Positions 6,460 to 14,769 of a DNA stretch of 64,000 bases are shown here, piece by piece. Both the position numbers and the translations under genes were made by a program. The notes under the pieces are model-generated. The model did no database searches and was not told where the DNA came from. It saw only the letters and a list, made by a program, of their open reading frames with translations. This stretch comes from Desulfurobacterium indicum (GTDB lineage: Bacteria > Aquificota > Aquificia > Desulfurobacteriales > Desulfurobacteriaceae), in contig NZ_MOEN01000004.1 of NCBI RefSeq assembly GCF_001968985.1, forward strand, positions 1 to 64,000. Reading direction: 5' to 3'. The first letter of the stretch is position 1; every line of letters begins with the position of its first letter.

Positions 6460-6747
6460 TTACTCAACAATGGCAAGAATGTCTTCCTCTCTGATGATGA
6501 GATATTTCTCACCATCAAGCTCAACTTCATTTCCTGCATACTTGCTGTAAAGAACCTTATCACCTTCCTTCACTTTTAAAGGCCTTACCTCACCGTTGTC
6601 AAGAAGTTTACCTTCACCAACGGCAACAACCTCTCCAATTTGAGACTCTTCCTTAGCGGTATCTGGAAGGATAATTCCACCAGCGGTCTTCTGCTCCATC
6701 TCAACTTTCTTTACAACCACCCTATCATAGAGAGGCTTTAACTTCAT
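6460..6747 (-). CDS. groES: Co-chaperonin GroES (Cpn10)
   Basis: The 95-residue lid of the GroEL chamber. The family pattern is clear: [11 protein letters not shown] at the start, the mobile loop around [22 protein letters not shown], and [10 protein letters not shown] followed by a C-terminal [14 protein letters not shown]. It is the first gene of the heat-shock operon, 26 bases ahead of groEL, with a CIRCE site between promoter and start. Confidence 0.98.
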
Positions 6748-6904: not shown

Positions 6905-7279
6905 TTACTCAGATATGTAGCACTTCACTTTTCCTATAAGATCACCACGAGAATGGATTATTTCACATTTAACATTAACTTGATCAACATAAAACTGACA
7001 AACCCTTGTTGCAATATATACTTTGCTATCGTTAGTATCAAGAACAACCAAACATTTATCTTCAGAACCTGGAACTGTACACTCTTTTGATATTGTGCCA
7101 TTATCTGCACATTCAGCACACAGACTTTGAATACAGTTAAGTAGATTCTGCTGAACCTTTGCAACAACAGACTTATTTCTAAATTTCATATAAGAAGGAA
7201 CAGCTATGACTGTAAGAACAGAAATAATCACAATTACAATTAAAAGTTCAACAAGAGAAAACCCTCCCTTACTCCACAT
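6905..7279 (-). CDS. Type IV prepilin-like protein (minor pilin or pseudopilin)
   Basis: A 124-residue secreted subunit with the type III signal: a short basic leader, cleavage at G before FSLVELLIVIVIISVLTVIAVPSYM, and the conserved Glu at position 5 of the mature chain. The globular part carries several cysteines (CIQSLCAEC, C in the EDKC segment, VCQF, KCEII, VKCY), suggesting disulfides. ATG 7279 has AAAGGG upstream; a GTG at 7288 is an alternative. It lies downstream of pilA on the same strand but behind a strong terminator, so it is probably separately or weakly expressed. It could be a diverged pilA duplicate. Confidence 0.8.
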   Translation of the reverse strand: MWSKGGFSLVELLIVIVIISVLTVIAVPSYMKFRNKSVVAKVQQNLLNCIQSLCAECADNGTISKECTVPGSEDKCLVVLDTNDSKVYIATRVCQFYVDQVNVKCEIIHSRGDLIGKVKCYISE

Positions 7280-7361
7280 AGCATCCACCCTTTACATAAA
7301 ATCAGCAATCATTAGTTCAGCATTATATATTATACACGATTAAATAAGAATAAATAAAAAA

Positions 7362-7404: not shown

Positions 7405-7755
7405 TTATTGTGGAGTACATGTAATTGTATTCGTCGTTGTATCAGCTGTACAAGAAACAGCATGTCCTTTCACAGTAAAGGTTGTAGGATCTATACTAGA
7501 AAGATTACCGCTGCTATCAAGAGTTATAGTTGCATTAGTGTTATTATCATCTTTTACAGGGCAAGTATAAGTAGTAGTTCCGTTGTCAGCAAACTGAGCC
7601 ATTGCAGCAGTTAAACAGGATGAAAGAGTTGCTTGAACATTTGCAGCAGCAGCCTTTCTCACATAATTTGTGTACTGCGGAATAGCGACAGCTGCAAGGA
7701 TTGCGATAATAGCTACAACGATAAGTAGCTCGATAAGTGTAAACGCTTTTCTCAT
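7405..7755 (-). CDS. pilA: Major type IV pilin (PilA)
   Basis: A 116-residue prepilin with a very short leader (MRKA), then [28 protein letters not shown], the classic hydrophobic N-terminal helix with Glu5. The peptidase PilD would cut before Phe5 of the precursor. The head domain is small and rich in Thr, Asn and Asp, with four cysteines (SSCLTA, YTCPV, VSCTA, ITCTP) likely paired. An AAGGAGG site precedes ATG 7755. It has its own terminator and an upstream sigma-54-like promoter with distal palindromes, consistent with a strongly expressed, regulated structural protein. Confidence 0.92.
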
Positions 7756-9799: not shown

Positions 9800-9828
9800 T
9801 TGACAGATATATGTTAAGAATATAAATT
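9800..9828 (+). promoter_or_regulatory. Candidate promoter of the RAMP/prefoldin-like operon
   Basis: TTGACA (9800-9805) is followed by an A/T-rich -10 region (TATAAA at 9821-9826, or TAAATT with 17-bp spacing). It lies about 40 bp ahead of the first gene at 9867. There is no other gene on this strand in the 190-bp gap. Confidence 0.5.
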
Positions 9829-9866: not shown

Positions 9867-10559
9867 ATGACGATAACCGAACTGCGGGAGATACAGGCTT
9901 TAAATACACTGGTATTTGAAACACTTGGACAACCGGAAAAGGAAAGGGAGTTTAAATTCAAGAGCCTTAAAAGATGGGGCCTGGATCTCATTGCAGGAAA
10001 AAAAGATGGTAAAGCAACCTTTTTCGTCTCTGAATACGGAAAGAGAAAAGCAGGAGATATTTATGATGAAGAAGGCATCCAATATGAAGTAACAGAAATA
10101 CTCTATGAAATACCAAAAAACAAAAAACTTTTCGCTCATATAGAAATGGAAAACGGAAGAGCATATCTTGTGGGAGAACTGAGAGAAAATGACAAAAATA
10201 TAGAAATCCTGAGATTACCAGCTGCATCAATGCTTCTTGCCTACTTCAAAAAACACCGCTTACACCATTTAATAGAAGCATTGAGAAATGTAGGAACAGC
10301 AACGGAGCTTGTAAAACAAAGGGGGCAGGAAGGTAAACCTTATTCATTTGAACAATTACCAAATGTAGCAAGAAGATTTTTAAGAGAAGCTAAAAAGGTG
10401 GAAAAAGAGGCAGGTTTTGGAAGGGTAGCACTTGCCTACTTTGGAGAGAATAAGGATGGTGATCCAAGGTTCAGAGTATCCTGGTTGTTGCCGACAATAG
10501 CCCTTTTTGAAATAGACATAGCAGAAAAAGCAGATAAAATTCTTGCCGCTTTCAAATAA
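9867..10559 (+). CDS. Protein of unknown function, first gene of RAMP/prefoldin-like operon
   Basis: A 230-residue soluble protein that I do not recognise. It has no signal peptide or membrane segment. The first half (residues 20-120) is predicted beta-rich, with alternating charged/hydrophobic segments ([21 protein letters not shown]-type strands). The middle (125-175) is helical and basic ([33 protein letters not shown]). The end has strand-like segments ending [24 protein letters not shown] precedes ATG 9867 and the RAMP-like gene follows after 12 bases, so the two are very likely functionally linked. Confidence 0.75.
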
Positions 10560-10571
10560 TCGGGAGGGATT

Positions 10572-11291
10572 ATGGAATTGCTAACCTGGACGCCTGTAGC
10601 TTTTTATAAAAAGCTATTTCCAAGGAATAAAGAAGGAAAAACTTTCATACCTGCAAACGTATTTAAAGAAGCATTTACAAGCGCAGTTATCTACTACTAC
10701 ATAAAAAAGGACAGAGAGATAGAACACCGTGTTAAAAATTATCTTCTTAAAAAAGGGCTGAAACCGGAAGAGATAATTGACAGGATAAAAGAGATAATTT
10801 TTGAAAAATATGGTGTACTTCAAGAAATAGAGCTTCCGGAAAAGATATTTATTGATGAAAAAGACCTTTACGAAACGCGAGCAGTCATATTTGACCTTAA
10901 AAATTGGGAAGACGTGGCAGAATTTGAGATAGAAGTCTTTAAAGGGAAAGTAGAAGTTCCAATTAAAACGCCTCACCTTGAAAAGCTCAAAGCTGCATGC
11001 CATTCATACTGCGAAGCCCTGGCAAACATGGAAAAGAAAATGCTGAAAGACCATCCTCTGGCAGAGAGCTTTTACCTGCCGTTGACCGATTCGATCAAAA
11101 AATGGGAAATTCCGTTAAGAATGGGAATGTGGACAGACTTAAGATTTAAAGGGCACCTTTTCTTTTTCTGGAGAGTAAAGGAAGTCAGAGAAAAACTTTT
11201 TGAAGAACTTAAAACAGACATAAGACCTACAAAAATAATCTATCTGCCGAAAGAGAACGCAACGGCAGGTTGGTGTGAGCTTTCAATCTAA
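10572..11291 (+). CDS. Orphan RAMP-superfamily (Csm5-like) protein
   Basis: A 239-residue protein. Its N-terminal part (LTWTPVAFYKK, then FIPANVFKEAFTSAVIYYYI at about residues 25-46) resembles the 'IPGSS-KGA-R-A' first segment of Csm5-type RAMPs. A Gly-containing stretch RMGMWTDLRFKGH follows near 180. The C-terminus, RPTKIIYLPKENATAGWCEL, resembles the Csm5 ending 'PKT....G.plGWvkl'. RAMPs normally bind crRNA in type III CRISPR effectors, but no cas10, other cas gene or repeat array is visible here. The gene sits between an unknown protein and a prefoldin-like gene. The family call is from motif memory and is tentative; an unrelated ferredoxin-fold RNA binder is possible. Confidence 0.45.
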   Translation: MELLTWTPVAFYKKLFPRNKEGKTFIPANVFKEAFTSAVIYYYIKKDREIEHRVKNYLLKKGLKPEEIIDRIKEIIFEKYGVLQEIELPEKIFIDEKDLYETRAVIFDLKNWEDVAEFEIEVFKGKVEVPIKTPHLEKLKAACHSYCEALANMEKKMLKDHPLAESFYLPLTDSIKKWEIPLRMGMWTDLRFKGHLFFFWRVKEVREKLFEELKTDIRPTKIIYLPKENATAGWCELSI

Positions 11292-11318
11292 ACAATAACA
11301 ATAAAAGGGAGGTGGAAC

Positions 11319-11792
11319 ATGCTGAAGAAACTGCTCAAAAAGGACGACAAGAAAATGGCAGAACTCAACAGGCAGCTGAGAAGCTACATCGCACAGATCG
11401 AAGCCCTGAGGGTGGAAATAGCAAACATCGACGATCTCATATCCGAATACAGGGCTACAATTACCACCCTCAAAAATCTCAAAGATTTAGGTGATGGCAA
11501 AGAAGTCCTTCTTCCGGTAGGCAGAATCGCTCAGGTTGCTGCAAAGCTCGAAAAAGTGGAAAAAGTCGTTATCAGCATAGGAAGCGGAATCTCTGTCGAA
11601 CTGCCGTTTGAAGAAGCAGTTTCCCAAATAGAAAAAGAAATTGCAGCACTTATCGTTCTAAGAGAAGCCCTCGAAAAAGCAATGGTTGATCTCTACGCTA
11701 AGGTAGAAGAAACAACCGAAAAAATCAGAGAACACGGACAATTTGAAGCTTCTGAAGAGGCAAAAGATGAGGAAGAAAAAGAAGAAAAATAA
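11319..11792 (+). CDS. Prefoldin alpha-subunit-like protein
   Basis: A 157-residue protein with the prefoldin alpha layout: an N-terminal coiled coil (about residues 10-50, QLRSYIAQIEALRVEIANIDDLI), a central beta-hairpin region with VLLPVGRIAQVAAKLE and VVISIGSGISVELPFEEA (about 65-105), then a second coiled coil (about 108-145). The 'lPvG....a......v.v.iG.Gi.vE....eA' pattern matches archaeal PfdA/GimC. The last 15 residues are very acidic. A GGGAGG site precedes ATG 11319. Prefoldin is normally archaeal or eukaryotic. Here it could act as a chaperone or scaffold for the operon's RAMP-like protein; no beta subunit is seen. Confidence 0.65.
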   Translation: MLKKLLKKDDKKMAELNRQLRSYIAQIEALRVEIANIDDLISEYRATITTLKNLKDLGDGKEVLLPVGRIAQVAAKLEKVEKVVISIGSGISVELPFEEAVSQIEKEIAALIVLREALEKAMVDLYAKVEETTEKIREHGQFEASEEAKDEEEKEEK

Positions 11793-11925
11793 AGAAATCA
11801 TAGAACTGCTAAAAAAGCTTCCCGCCGGAAGAAAAATATACTACAAGGCGGGAAGTATAATGGTGGAAGTTTCTAAAGAAGAAGCGATAAAACTCCTTGA
11901 AAAGGAAAAAGAGGGGGAGGATTAA
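11767..11925 (+). CDS. Small basic protein of unknown function
   Basis: A 52-residue ORF that starts inside the 3' end of the prefoldin-like gene (26-nt overlap, GAAGAGG upstream). It begins with a run of lysines (MRKKKKKNKE), then a helix, the segment LPAGRKIYYKAGSIMVEVS and a final helix EEAIKLLEKE. I do not recognise it. Overlap and strand show it belongs to the RAMP/prefoldin-like operon. A start at 11743 would add eight residues. Confidence 0.6.
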   Translation: MRKKKKKNKEIIELLKKLPAGRKIYYKAGSIMVEVSKEEAIKLLEKEKEGED

Positions 11926-11943
11926 TCTCCCCCTCTTTTTTAA
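11911..11943 (+). terminator. Terminator of the RAMP/prefoldin-like operon
   Basis: GAGGGGGAG, a short loop, CTCCCCCTC and then TTTTTT: a strong intrinsic terminator immediately after the small basic gene, closing the four-gene unit. Confidence 0.92.
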
Positions 11944-11949
11944 TTATAC

Positions 11950-12269
11950 TTAGAAATGAACAATTTTATCTGCCCATTTAACTATCTCGTAGAGATCTTC
12001 CATTGTCGAAAGGGGACAGGCACCGTTATCAACATACTTTTCAACAACAATGCACGTTCCACAGGTATAGATCTGGCCACCTTTGTCTAAAAACCTCTCC
12101 ATTCTATCTTTTAAATTGACTTCCTCGGCATCGATTATTCTAGTATCAAAACATTCACCAAGAAAAAAATCTTCACTTCATTACCATCATCCACGGCAAT
12201 ATTTGCAAATTTCATAGCACTACGAATACGTCTAATTTTATCAGTTCCAATAATAACAGCAAGCTTCAT
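11950..12269 (-). pseudogene. DsrE-family-like small protein with a one-base frameshift
   Basis: From ATG 12269 (GAGGGGG upstream) the protein reads MKLAVIIGTDKIRRIRSAMKF and continues to EVKIFF, then hits a stop. Allowing one extra base at an A7 run (12163-12169 on the + strand) restores a 106-residue protein: LGECFDTRIIDAEE, then a helix, GGQIYTCGTCIVV and a C-terminal ADKIVHF. This is the layout of DsrE/DsrF-like sulfur-relay proteins, with cysteines in the usual loop (CGTC). A real mutation, a sequencing error in the homopolymer, or programmed slippage are all possible. DsrE proteins handle sulfane sulfur, fitting a sulfur-respiring organism. Confidence 0.7.
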
Positions 12270-12463: not shown

Positions 12464-13453
12464 CTATTCTGCTCTGTTAGAAGGCATCGTTGTTTCAACA
12501 TGAACGGGTTTATTTTGTTCAGGTTTCAAAATCTGTATTCTTTGATTTAGCCAATCTGTAACAATAACATCACCTCTGTTATCAACGGCAACATCGGTAG
12601 GATAGTTAAACCAACCGGGAGACCAACCTCTTCCTCCAAATTCAAAAAGAAAGTTTCCGTTCATATCATAAGCAAGCACCGCCTGCCTCATTGGATCACA
12701 GACATATATACGTCTGTTTTCTTCATCAATAGTAACAGCAGAAGGCTGACTTAACTGACCAAAGTTTGCACCGTGAGTTCCAAACTTAAATAGAAACGTT
12801 CCATCCTTATCAAAAACGTAAACCTGACCAAAATCAAGCGCAACAAGATAAACACGTCCAAGAGAATCAACACCTACATTGGAGACAATAGAACCAACTT
12901 TTATATCTTCCACTTTCATTTCAGGATACAAGAATCGTGTAAACTTTCCATTCTCATCAAAACAGACAACAAAATCCTTTCCCGCTCCTGTTACGTATAT
13001 TTCTCCAGTTACGGGATTGACTGCAACATGAGTCGGAACAAAATCATTATCACCTTTAAATCCTTTCACCGGAATAACTTTTTTAAGAATAAGAGCTGAA
13101 GAAAGAACATAAATTTTCTGCTCATTAGAAGAGATTAGATAAAAGTTACCTTTAGAATCGACAAAAATATCGACAGGATCTTTTACTCCATAGCCTTTGC
13201 CTACTGCTAGAAAAGGAAAGTAATCCGGTGTATAAAATATCACTTTGGATTTACCAGGTTCAACAACATAAAGTTGTCTTGACTTCTTATCATAAAAAAT
13301 AGAACCGGGATAGGCCAAGGCCTTCCCGGTCTCATCTATGTTGATAATACCAAGCACCCTTGTGGAAACGACTTTTTGCCCCTTAGCTTTCAAAGGAAAA
13401 CCGCAGAGCAATCCGGTTAAAAAAATAGCTATTAACCTTTTGTTGTATGACAT
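12464..13453 (-). CDS. Secreted NHL-repeat beta-propeller protein
   Basis: About 329 residues with an N-terminal signal peptide (KRLIAIFLTGLLCGFPLKA) and some six repeats of the NHL type, such as YPGSIFYDKKSRQLYVVE, QPSAVTIDEENRRIYVCD and YPTDVAVDNRGDVIVTDWLNQRIQIL. The fold should be a periplasmic or surface beta-propeller used for binding. It overlaps the 3' end of the OmcS-like cytochrome gene in another frame (22 nt from ATG 13453; ATG 13462 and GTG 13468 are alternatives), so the two are translationally coupled. A role in assembling or anchoring the cytochrome is inferred from this coupling only. Confidence 0.85.
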   Translation of the reverse strand: MSYNKRLIAIFLTGLLCGFPLKAKGQKVVSTRVLGIINIDETGKALAYPGSIFYDKKSRQLYVVEPGKSKVIFYTPDYFPFLAVGKGYGVKDPVDIFVDSKGNFYLISSNEQKIYVLSSALILKKVIPVKGFKGDNDFVPTHVAVNPVTGEIYVTGAGKDFVVCFDENGKFTRFLYPEMKVEDIKVGSIVSNVGVDSLGRVYLVALDFGQVYVFDKDGTFLFKFGTHGANFGQLSQPSAVTIDEENRRIYVCDPMRQAVLAYDMNGNFLFEFGGRGWSPGWFNYPTDVAVDNRGDVIVTDWLNQRIQILKPEQNKPVHVETTMPSNRAE

Positions 13454-14769
13454 ACCATACATCCACACTCATTCATGAGAGTTGCATTTGTAGAAGCACT
13501 ATCAGCGGTACATGTTGAGTAGTCCCATCTGAGAAGATCGTAGTATGGTGAACCGTGAGCCCTGTGGCAGGACACACATGTAACTATGGCATCGTCACCT
13601 GTCCATGAAATGGTGTTATCTGTGAGAAGCGTGTAGTTATCCGTTGCAACAGGAGCAAACATACTGTAAGGAGCAGATGTTGGATTACCACCGTTGTAAT
13701 ATTTGTATTCAACATCAGTATGTCCATCTACACCTATCGTAGCAGGTCCTGCATTTGAAAGATCAAAATCAGTCGGGTGTCTGAGCCATGGCGTCCCTAT
13801 AGGTGAATCTATTGCAGTAGGATCTCTTGAAACTTCAGCACCGCTGTGGAAAATACCGTGACACTCTGCACAAAGGTAAGAGATGGTATGAGGATTCGCA
13901 GTTGTAGGATCCTCAGAAGCTCTATTTACACCGTAATAAATATTATGTGAAACTCCGTTAGCATCTGCAACTGCTGCATATTCGTAATAGTTATGCTCAT
14001 ATCCCGCAATACCAGCAAGGAATCTGTAGCTGTTACCAATAGTTCCCGTACCGTTCACCCAACCATACATGTTGGAGTGGTGAGCTCCGTTTATACCTGC
14101 AAAGCTGTCAAGTGTTGATGCATTATGTCTTCCGTGACAGCCATAAACACCTGCACATGTAAGCTGATGAGTCCATGTAGCTTCACCGTTTGCTACCTTA
14201 GAGCCGAAAATTGCATCAGTAAAGTGAGTGGCGTTTGCATCCCAACCAGGCGGCGTTAAACCGATATTTGGATCTGGCGGCATACCAAGATCAGCAACGT
14301 TGTGTGAAAATCTTGAATCTTGAGTTCTCCCCCAATAGAAGCTTCCACCTGCAAGAGCCCTGTTCTGACCCCATGTAGCGGTTGAATAGTTACCAGTGGT
14401 ATATGCATCTCCAGTTGATGGATATTCCGGCTGTGTTGTTGAATCAACATAGGGCCAGAGATGATCGCCGTAATAGAGAGTTCCCGCTTTTGGTGCCTCA
14501 CCATAAGTGTGACAGTAACGACAGTCACCGCGAAGAAGGTTTCTAATAGGCGTTGTCGAATTTGAGAATGTCATCGGAACAACGTTAGTGGAACTTACAG
14601 TTCCGGTAGTGTAGCTGGCATTACTGTCCCACGGATAGACACCGTGCTGAGAGTTGTGCATTGTGTGACAGTTCACACATGGACCTACAACAGCACTGGC
14701 ATTTTGATATAAGATAAAGCCAGAAGATGCCAGCACTGCCAAAGTGCCCAGAAGCAGTTTCCTTCTCAT
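13432..14769 (-). CDS. OmcS-like hexaheme c-type cytochrome (putative extracellular nanowire subunit)
   Basis: A 445-residue exported protein with signal peptide (residues 1-26). Heme motifs: CVNCH 31-35, CRYCH 83-87, an unusual C-X5-CH (CAGVYGCH) 205-212, CAECH 300-304, CVSCH 398-402 and CMVCH 437-441. Their contexts parallel Geobacter OmcS as I recall it: CHTMHNS at heme 1, YRFLAG in the middle, LRHP after heme 4, CHRAH at heme 5 and a heme at the extreme C-terminus. OmcS polymerises into conductive filaments for extracellular electron transfer. Extra cysteines at 420 and 435 may form a disulfide. AGGAGG precedes ATG 14769. It could instead be a soluble multiheme cytochrome of the same family. 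An overlapping NHL gene follows. Confidence 0.8.
   Translation of the reverse strand: MRRKLLLGTLAVLASSGFILYQNASAVVGPCVNCHTMHNSQHGVYPWDSNASYTTGTVSSTNVVPMTFSNSTTPIRNLLRGDCRYCHTYGEAPKAGTLYYGDHLWPYVDSTTQPEYPSTGDAYTTGNYSTATWGQNRALAGGSFYWGRTQDSRFSHNVADLGMPPDPNIGLTPPGWDANATHFTDAIFGSKVANGEATWTHQLTCAGVYGCHGRHNASTLDSFAGINGAHHSNMYGWVNGTGTIGNSYRFLAGIAGYEHNYYEYAAVADANGVSHNIYYGVNRASEDPTTANPHTISYLCAECHGIFHSGAEVSRDPTAIDSPIGTPWLRHPTDFDLSNAGPATIGVDGHTDVEYKYYNGGNPTSAPYSMFAPVATDNYTLLTDNTISWTGDDAIVTCVSCHRAHGSPYYDLLRWDYSTCTADSASTNATLMNECGCMVCHTTKG

Follow-up and report, generated by a model that had tools for sequence, protein, structure and literature searches.

The stretch of DNA analysed here, referred to as the window, comprises positions 1 to 64,000 of contig NZ_MOEN01000004.1 of Desulfurobacterium indicum, and the element under study is a compact operon of four genes at 9867-11925 on its forward strand in this heat-loving bacterium. 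Gene 1 encodes a member of the UPF0128 family, gene 2 a solitary repeat-associated mysterious protein (RAMP) of the Csm5 type, and genes 3 and 4 two prefoldin subunits, the second of them shortened (Table 1). An original prediction, made from the letters of the window, had described four genes on one strand, separated by 12 and 27 bases and overlapping at the end, and the coordinates confirm this layout, with genes 3 and 4 overlapping by 26 bases and gene 4 starting at an ATG at 11767. The same prediction had given the operon its own promoter and a strong terminator. The terminator is borne out by a hairpin of 16 pairs followed by a T run, and terminator-like sites number 7 in the scanned region versus 2.1 expected from shuffles; promoter-like sites occur there at chance level (6 observed, 4.9 in shuffles), so that the promoter upstream of gene 1 is plausible only. 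The order of all four genes is kept in 18 of the 21 other loci that an initial search for relatives retrieved (19 of 22 if the window is counted), which argues that the operon is not a chance arrangement and upholds the conservation of gene order that had been foreseen. Rfam at its gathering threshold and tRNA scans found a single non-coding RNA in the window, a tRNA-Gly at 26 kb.

No Pfam or NCBIfam family matches gene 2 at its cut-off, and the Csm5 model TIGR01899 gives no match at E up to 10. The kinship with Csm5 is seen in the fold and in family profiles. An AlphaFold model built from a family alignment of 40 rows (predicted local distance difference test, pLDDT, 94.3; predicted template modelling score 0.91) superimposes on the Csm5 chain 6mur_F with a VIA Z of 16.6, 224 of 239 residues being aligned at a root-mean-square deviation of 2.9. 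The 30 best VIA rows (Z 16.6-10.2) are Csm-complex chains that we took as Csm5, and the best RAMP protein of another kind, a type IV-A3 effector chain, reaches Z 8.0; the 16 best Foldseek matches are likewise Csm-complex chains listed for Csm5 (best E 5.4e-7). Aligned with hhalign, the gene 2 family scores 97.7% against six Csm5 proteins from relatives (E 2.1e-12, 170 columns), compared with 6.1% against the Csm3 and 1.0% against the Csm4 encoded next to those Csm5 proteins; pairwise identity to Csm5 is 12-19%. When a profile of 18 relatives was searched against the PDB, Csm5 came first at E 0.037 and accounted for 6 of the 14 sequences found at E up to 10. TIGR01899 matches at the RAMP genes of five relatives (G004, G014, G060, G129 and G130; G, C and L numbers are our handles for genomes, contigs and loci) are N-terminal and all below the cut-off. 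Run over 136 genomes of the window's phylum, which we take from the titles of matching records to be Aquificota, the gene 2 profile retrieved full-length members together with weak, mostly N-terminal matches. Six of the weak matches were opened, and each lies in a gene above the TIGR01899 cut-off and beside Csm3- and Csm4-like genes (the unopened ones are in G116:C13 and G102:C306, with short ones in G103:C43 and G129:C4); all 12 solved chains retrieved with a profile of these six Csm5 genes are Csm5. Comparison therefore shows that gene 2 is a Csm5-type RAMP protein outside CRISPR. The original prediction had recognised Csm5-like segments in it and had looked to a RAMP fold in the 239-residue protein; the predicted structure matches Csm5 throughout.

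Like Csm5, a Cas7-group RAMP protein of type III-A systems (TIGR01899), gene 2 possesses the whole RAMP core, a segment similar to G.P.LPG..K.A, an RxG motif and a GW end; unlike Csm5, it has 239 rather than the 364-396 amino acids seen in six Csm5 proteins, and it is encoded outside any csm or cas10 locus. Residues 15-46 align with the Csm5 segment that holds G.PYIPGSSLKGA, and within them F16, K45 and K46 are invariant in 40 of 40 rows. The same is true of R183, G185, W187 and T188 in the PLRxGxWT motif, where hhalign places R183-G185 on the RLG of Csm5; on our reading beyond the end of that alignment, W187 may replace the Csm5 histidine. Altogether 18 of the 30 positions checked are identical in all 40 members, and this invariant set includes K45, K46, D47, R183, W187, T188, W200, K203, R206 and D216. 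Glu121 (Glu in 38 rows, Asp in 2) is aligned by hhalign with a conserved glutamate of Csm5, and it may correspond to E191 of Staphylococcus epidermidis Csm5, a conserved acid that is needed for CRISPR RNA (crRNA) maturation according to the accessible part of PMC10289348.

We then compared the distribution of the three main components across the 136 genomes. UPF0128 was found in 47, the RAMP gene in 48 and prefoldin in 47 of them, after G126 had been dropped from the RAMP count as a true Csm5 (L072) and G119 from the prefoldin count as a sub-cut-off match. All three are present in 44 genomes and at least one in 51, a co-occurrence with Fisher p values of 2.5e-27 to 1.2e-32 when relatedness is ignored. 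In most genomes of the genera g9, g10, g24 and g27 the three genes are jointly present or jointly absent, a pattern that favours repeated concordant change. UPF0128 lies at most 60 bases before the RAMP gene in 39 of the 44 genomes with both, and in 33 of 46 genomes no more than 250 bases separate the RAMP gene from a prefoldin gene downstream. In the genus g30 the three genes are non-adjacent, yet five genomes have them all. The protein distances of UPF0128 and RAMP are correlated, as co-inheritance predicts, with r of 0.75 for 29 adjacent pairs and 0.50 for 30 pairs when the non-adjacent L041 is included (each reached by 0 of 2000 permutations). Comparison shows also that the prefoldin, an alpha2/gamma-type subunit with a shortened beta subunit, is co-inherited with the pair in Aquificota, even where it is unlinked. 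Some loci are rearranged: in L054, L065 and L097 the order is prefoldin, c4, c5, UPF0128, RAMP, prefoldin beta and DUF505 (c4 and c5 are described below), and G103:C43:138840-139354 carries a 25-residue match to the RAMP C terminus just before prefoldin while the full UPF0128-RAMP pair is on C13, an arrangement suggesting that the operon was split or copied and left part of the RAMP gene behind.

The UPF0128-RAMP pair extends beyond the phylum and is inherited together in several groups of bacteria. Among 199 genomes of the order to which the Nautiliaceae genome G153 belongs, the RAMP gene occurs in 20 and UPF0128 in 23 (G187 and G267 were dropped from the RAMP count, as their matches at E 1.7e-4 are partial and lie in frames of 822-824 amino acids). 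All 20 RAMP genomes, six of them already known from the locus set of named genomes, have UPF0128 as well, directly upstream in every case by the listed coordinates. In that locus set of 44, UPF0128 is directly upstream of the RAMP gene in 35 loci and three kilobases away in L041. A search of 23 genomes chosen from these loci, mainly because genes were missing nearby or because their titles lay outside Aquificota, found UPF0128 in 21 and prefoldin in 6. The locus and genome sets share some assemblies and are not independent, and many relatives are metagenome bins, so that titles may mislead. The core that recurs beyond the phylum is UPF0128 plus RAMP, and their partnership, which is strong and not absolute, is well supported.

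The original prediction had set genes 1 and 4 aside as unknown proteins; both can be assigned to families. Gene 1 is a full-length UPF0128 member (E 8e-100 against PF03673 and 5.3e-100 against TIGR00703; 333 bits against cut-offs of 21 and 155.4, respectively) and differs in nothing from the family. Its AlphaFold model has a pLDDT of 92.0. The idea that UPF0128 is itself a second RAMP protein was tried and rejected, as the C-terminal half weakly matches only ferredoxin-like designs (VIA Z 5.6); the VIA list hardly tests residues 1-118. Methanocaldococcus jannaschii, used as a search control, also carries a UPF0128 protein. The gene is duplicated in the g30 genomes G131, G132, G134 and G135, one of the two copies being divergent and neither adjoining the RAMP gene, and G063:C43:8941-9132 holds a UPF0128 remnant with two stop codons beside c4 and c5 in a genome that has no RAMP or prefoldin match. 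The open-licence literature that we searched yielded no mention of UPF0128, TIGR00703 or PF03673, and its matches to strings such as aq756 or MJ1463 appear unrelated to the family.

Gene 3, which the original prediction had likened to prefoldin, scores 93 bits against TIGR00293 (cut-off 53.9), and among solved structures it comes closest to 'Prefoldin subunit alpha 2' 6vy1_A, with 121.5 bits compared with 42.5 for the next chain. We take 6vy1 to be the M. jannaschii filament, and by its closeness to this structure the gene 3 product may assemble into filaments by itself. Gene 4 matches PF01920 (E 6.9e-8, 32.9 bits, cut-off 27.6) over positions 25-73 of a profile of 106, and reaches 22.8 bits with TIGR02338, far from the cut-off of 73 for a full beta subunit with coiled-coil tentacles. 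Its best PDB match is 'Prefoldin beta subunit 2' 3aei_A (E 0.0073), presumably archaeal. In L054, L065 and L097 the counterpart of gene 4 has 98-99 residues. Genes 3 and 4 thus resemble the archaeal gamma- and alpha2-beta2 prefoldins in their closest solved subunits, and differ from the prefoldin of hyperthermophilic archaea in their bacterial host and in a beta subunit cut to 52 amino acids. The M. jannaschii gamma-prefoldin is reported, in the part of PMC11117396 available to us, not to bind alpha or beta. On prefoldin in Aquificota nothing relevant was found in the open-licence literature searched, and the accessible part of PMC7203096 does not mention it.

Taken together, these data lead us to favour, at a probability of roughly 0.55, an interpretation in which a chromosomal, non-CRISPR derivative of Csm5 works with UPF0128, probably on RNA, and is joined by prefoldin in Aquificota. 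UPF0128 and the RAMP protein would form one complex, whose RAMP core would hold RNA, a short duplex or a 3' end being the likeliest ligand, in the way that Csm5 holds the 3' part of crRNA. The prefoldin would keep this complex assembled at high temperature, and is most simply seen as an assembly or stability factor. The tentacle-poor gene 4 protein may cap or nucleate gamma-type prefoldin assemblies. The RNA could be presented to UPF0128 or to housekeeping nucleases of the sort that Csm5 recruits, PNPase and RNase R; Csm5 binds both of these and stimulates PNPase (PMC9762709, in part). In L045 an RNase Y gene is found close to the UPF0128-RAMP pair, and in G142 one lies close to the prefoldin genes, a weak lead toward an exonuclease-linked RNA role. 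The natural role of the complex would be in RNA metabolism or quality control, not in immunity. The original prediction had spoken of a repurposed RNA-binding RAMP protein with a chaperone; the Csm5-type RAMP protein and the prefoldin stand, and RNA binding is putative.

A number of observations count against this interpretation. RNA binding by gene 2 is plausible from the fold of the predicted model only. Five regions of Csm5 touch RNA, namely the beta1-loop with two glycines, the capping domain, the thumb, helix alpha1 and the beta3'-loop (PMC10289348, in part). Unlike Csm5, gene 2 has no capping domain, since strand 2-5 leads to helix 28-46 with no room for an insert; the HIGxG glycine loop is absent from 40 of 40 rows of its alignment, and the thumb is reduced in the predicted model to a short hairpin at 99-123. 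The capping domain of Csm5 touches target RNA and Csm2 and, being without it and without the HIGxG loop, gene 2 is not expected to cap a Csm3/Csm2 filament. At K32, the site of the lysine in the PG..IKGA of Csm5, only 19 of 40 rows have Lys or Arg. The window's gene 2 protein is nearly neutral (42 K+R versus 40 D+E), while in six Csm5 proteins K+R exceed D+E by 9 to 32; charge is not uniform in the family, since three other members have 43/43, 50/39 and 32/37 (-5 to +11). Gene 1 has no clear match to a solved fold (best Foldseek E 1.2e-3, best VIA Z 5.6), and as a candidate second RAMP protein it scores 0.2% against gene 2 and 0.1% against Csm5 in hhalign. The co-occurrence also has its exceptions. 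The RAMP gene is found without UPF0128 in G023, G115, G129, G130 and the WOR-3 genome G151, with prefoldin missing too from the g30 genomes G129 and G130, and UPF0128 without the RAMP gene in G012, G063 and G108, as well as in G180, G196 and G302. In G108 UPF0128 and prefoldin lie about 300 bases apart on one contig with no RAMP gene. Some exception genomes are incomplete assemblies; G108 and G130 are 96% and 95% complete. Finally, no prefoldin was found in a search of 16 genomes whose titles are other than Aquificota (three WOR-3, seven Nautiliaceae, one Nitratiruptor, two Bacteroidetes, one Chlorobiota, one Deferribacteres and one Thermodesulfatator), which makes it look like an Aquificota addition.

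Several of these points would suit a RAMP fold that is a mere scaffold, a structural partner of UPF0128 that has lost RNA binding and whose conserved polar cluster (K45-K46-D47, R183-G185-W187-T188, K203, R206 and D216) binds UPF0128 or a small ligand. The missing capping domain and glycine loop, the short thumb, the near-neutral charge of the window's protein and the position of the RAMP gene next to UPF0128 are all compatible with it, as are the many invariant residues of gene 2, several of which have no obvious counterpart in Csm5. Yet the protein keeps the RAMP core along its full length, together with helix alpha1, the RxG motif and an acid at the site of the conserved Csm5 glutamate; we regard a scaffold as possible but rather unlikely. 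Much further from our expectations is a heat-stress folding operon whose function resides in the prefoldin, with UPF0128 and the RAMP gene merely co-regulated. It would agree with the joint presence of prefoldin and the RAMP gene in 46 genomes, with 3 exceptions, and with the 26-fold rise in transcription of the M. jannaschii gamma-prefoldin after lethal heat shock (PMC11117396, in part), but the UPF0128-RAMP pair persists without prefoldin in other groups, and the five g30 genomes hold both prefoldin and the pair although the genes are non-adjacent. We think this very improbable.

The remaining alternatives turn on immunity, and both had been raised in the original prediction, as an undescribed defence module and as a detached type III accessory set. 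Haloarchaeal HRAMP, another set of RAMP proteins exapted outside CRISPR arrays, is thought to be a defence system (PMC8730458, in part), and the present module might be of that kind with UPF0128 as its effector. HRAMP, however, consists of Cas5- and Cas7-like proteins with nucleases according to the same partial source, whereas the module has one Csm5-type protein and UPF0128, and Pfam, NCBIfam and PADLOC find no nuclease family among the four genes. With PADLOC, genes 1 and 2 have no match at E up to 10, and genes 3 and 4 have only weak ones (best E 0.0048). Among 97 candidate stretches of viral contigs, the phage collection not being part of that search, none encodes a gene 2 relative, and plasmids yielded no relative of gene 1 or gene 2. 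Moreover, the operon shared by 18 of 21 other loci and the correlated protein distances look like vertical inheritance. Rejected as a defence island, the module is in our view more doubtful as an HRAMP-like system than as a folding operon. A type III-A accessory acting in trans on behalf of the cell's own Csm complex would explain the homology of gene 2 to Csm5, and the window's genome does hold Csm5 and Cas10 on another contig (G000:C18). Across the 136 genomes, where Csm5 exceeds its cut-off in 49 and Cas10 in 56, the RAMP gene is correlated with neither (Csm5 in 20 of 48 RAMP genomes and 29 of 88 others, p 0.35; Cas10 in 23 of 48 and 33 of 88, p 0.28), and 21 of the 44 module genomes have neither above the cut-off. 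Sixteen of these 21 have Cas10-model matches below it, some of them probably only RNase Y HD domains; as Cas10 of other subtypes can score below the cut-off, other type III subtypes are possible there. The other five (G039, G064, G104, G113 and G120) lack any Cas10 match; one of them, G039, is 100% complete and is without a Csm5 match as well. Gene 2 also lacks the capping domain through which Csm5 meets Csm2. We therefore reject the detached accessory set, the least probable of the readings considered. That no cas genes are visible in the window holds for the two models run on it, Csm5 having no match there and Cas10 none among the matches listed. Among 18 neighbour proteins scanned with Pfam no cas family was found, the neighbours of the RAMP gene being UPF0128, prefoldin and unrelated genes. 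On balance we regard the module as a chromosomal one outside CRISPR.

The wider neighbourhood of the module includes two further families, c4, with one N-terminal membrane-like segment, and c5, by eye a membrane protein. They are found in 14 and 13 of the 44 loci, respectively, and together in 41 of the 136 genomes; they often adjoin the module, and c5 adjoins UPF0128 in a WOR-3 genome. Both were considered as part of the module core and rejected, and are taken as associates, because they are unlinked in the window's genome (G000:C7) and c4 occurs in six genomes without the RAMP gene. A 5-formyltetrahydrofolate cyclo-ligase gene accompanies that of RNase Y near the UPF0128-RAMP pair (L045 3407-5630), and homologous genes lie near the G142 prefoldin (L093 1688-3966). 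A DUF505-family protein, of which one member was scanned, adjoins the prefoldin genes in L054, L065, L097 and the f2 genome of L095; the one text match opened for DUF505 in the literature reads DUF5059. In 12 of 44 loci, for example at L031 5282-6199, the gene after the operon or after the RAMP gene encodes a protein with a signal-like N terminus that belongs to the YfdX family, as judged from one scanned member. In Nautiliaceae (L053, L056 and L059) the pair lies beside genes that by eye are QueE- and QueD-like, and in L056 two Nitro_FeMo-Co domain proteins are encoded downstream of it. On the minus strand of the window, a DsrE-like gene at 11950-12269 is spread over two frames with a break near a T run, and its second part has a sub-threshold DsrE match; the break may be a frameshift, a pseudogene or a sequencing error. 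By eye, the same strand also encodes GroES (6460-6747), two tandem pilin-like proteins (6905-7288 and 7405-7755) and a protein resembling multihaem cytochromes that has several CxxCH motifs (13432-14769).

Table 1. Features of the operon in the window, and neighbouring families at other loci (locus handle given before the coordinates).
Feature	Location	Strand	Remarks
Promoter-like site TTGACA-N17-TAAATT	9800-9828	+	upstream of operon; 10/12 consensus
Gene 1, UPF0128/TIGR00703 protein	9867-10559	+	230 aa
Gene 2, solo Csm5-type RAMP protein without Csm5 capping domain	10572-11291	+	239 aa
Csm5-like FPRD..GK.F.P....EA segment and helix alpha1	10614-10709	+	gene 2 residues 15-46
PLRxGxWT, counterpart of Csm5 RLGKH...G loop	11112-11135	+	gene 2 residues 181-188
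Gene 3, prefoldin alpha-family subunit, alpha2/gamma type	11319-11792	+	157 aa
Gene 4, shortened prefoldin beta (hairpin and flanking helix stretches)	11767-11925	+	52 aa
Intrinsic-terminator-like hairpin, 16 pairs then T run	11905-11941	+	at operon end
c4/c5 pair, examples	L025 9400-10469; L092 5794-6318; G000:C7:5311-6338		
DUF505-family protein	L097 3157-5127; L054 9015-10976; L095 1761-3695		

The exaptation of CRISPR parts is a recognised trend (PMC8730458 and PMC12669027, both in part), and a lone Csm5-type chromosomal gene with one fixed non-Cas partner is absent from the exaptation passages of these two sources. Neither the gene 2 family as an orphan Csm5 nor its partnership with UPF0128 and its link to prefoldin was found in the open-licence literature searched. 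More tentatively, UPF0128 and the Csm5 core may constitute a new housekeeping RNA-handling complex of hydrothermal-vent bacteria, possibly shared with UPF0128-bearing archaea, in which a guide-binding protein would have been re-used for the 3' ends of cellular RNA and a borrowed archaeal prefoldin would act as the dedicated assembly factor in Aquificota, comparable to the prefoldin-like factors that assemble ribonucleoproteins in eukaryotes. The operon provides a clear case of an archaeal-type prefoldin in bacteria that is co-inherited with a specific protein pair, and the uncharacterised UPF0128 family gains a strong candidate partner through which its role becomes testable.

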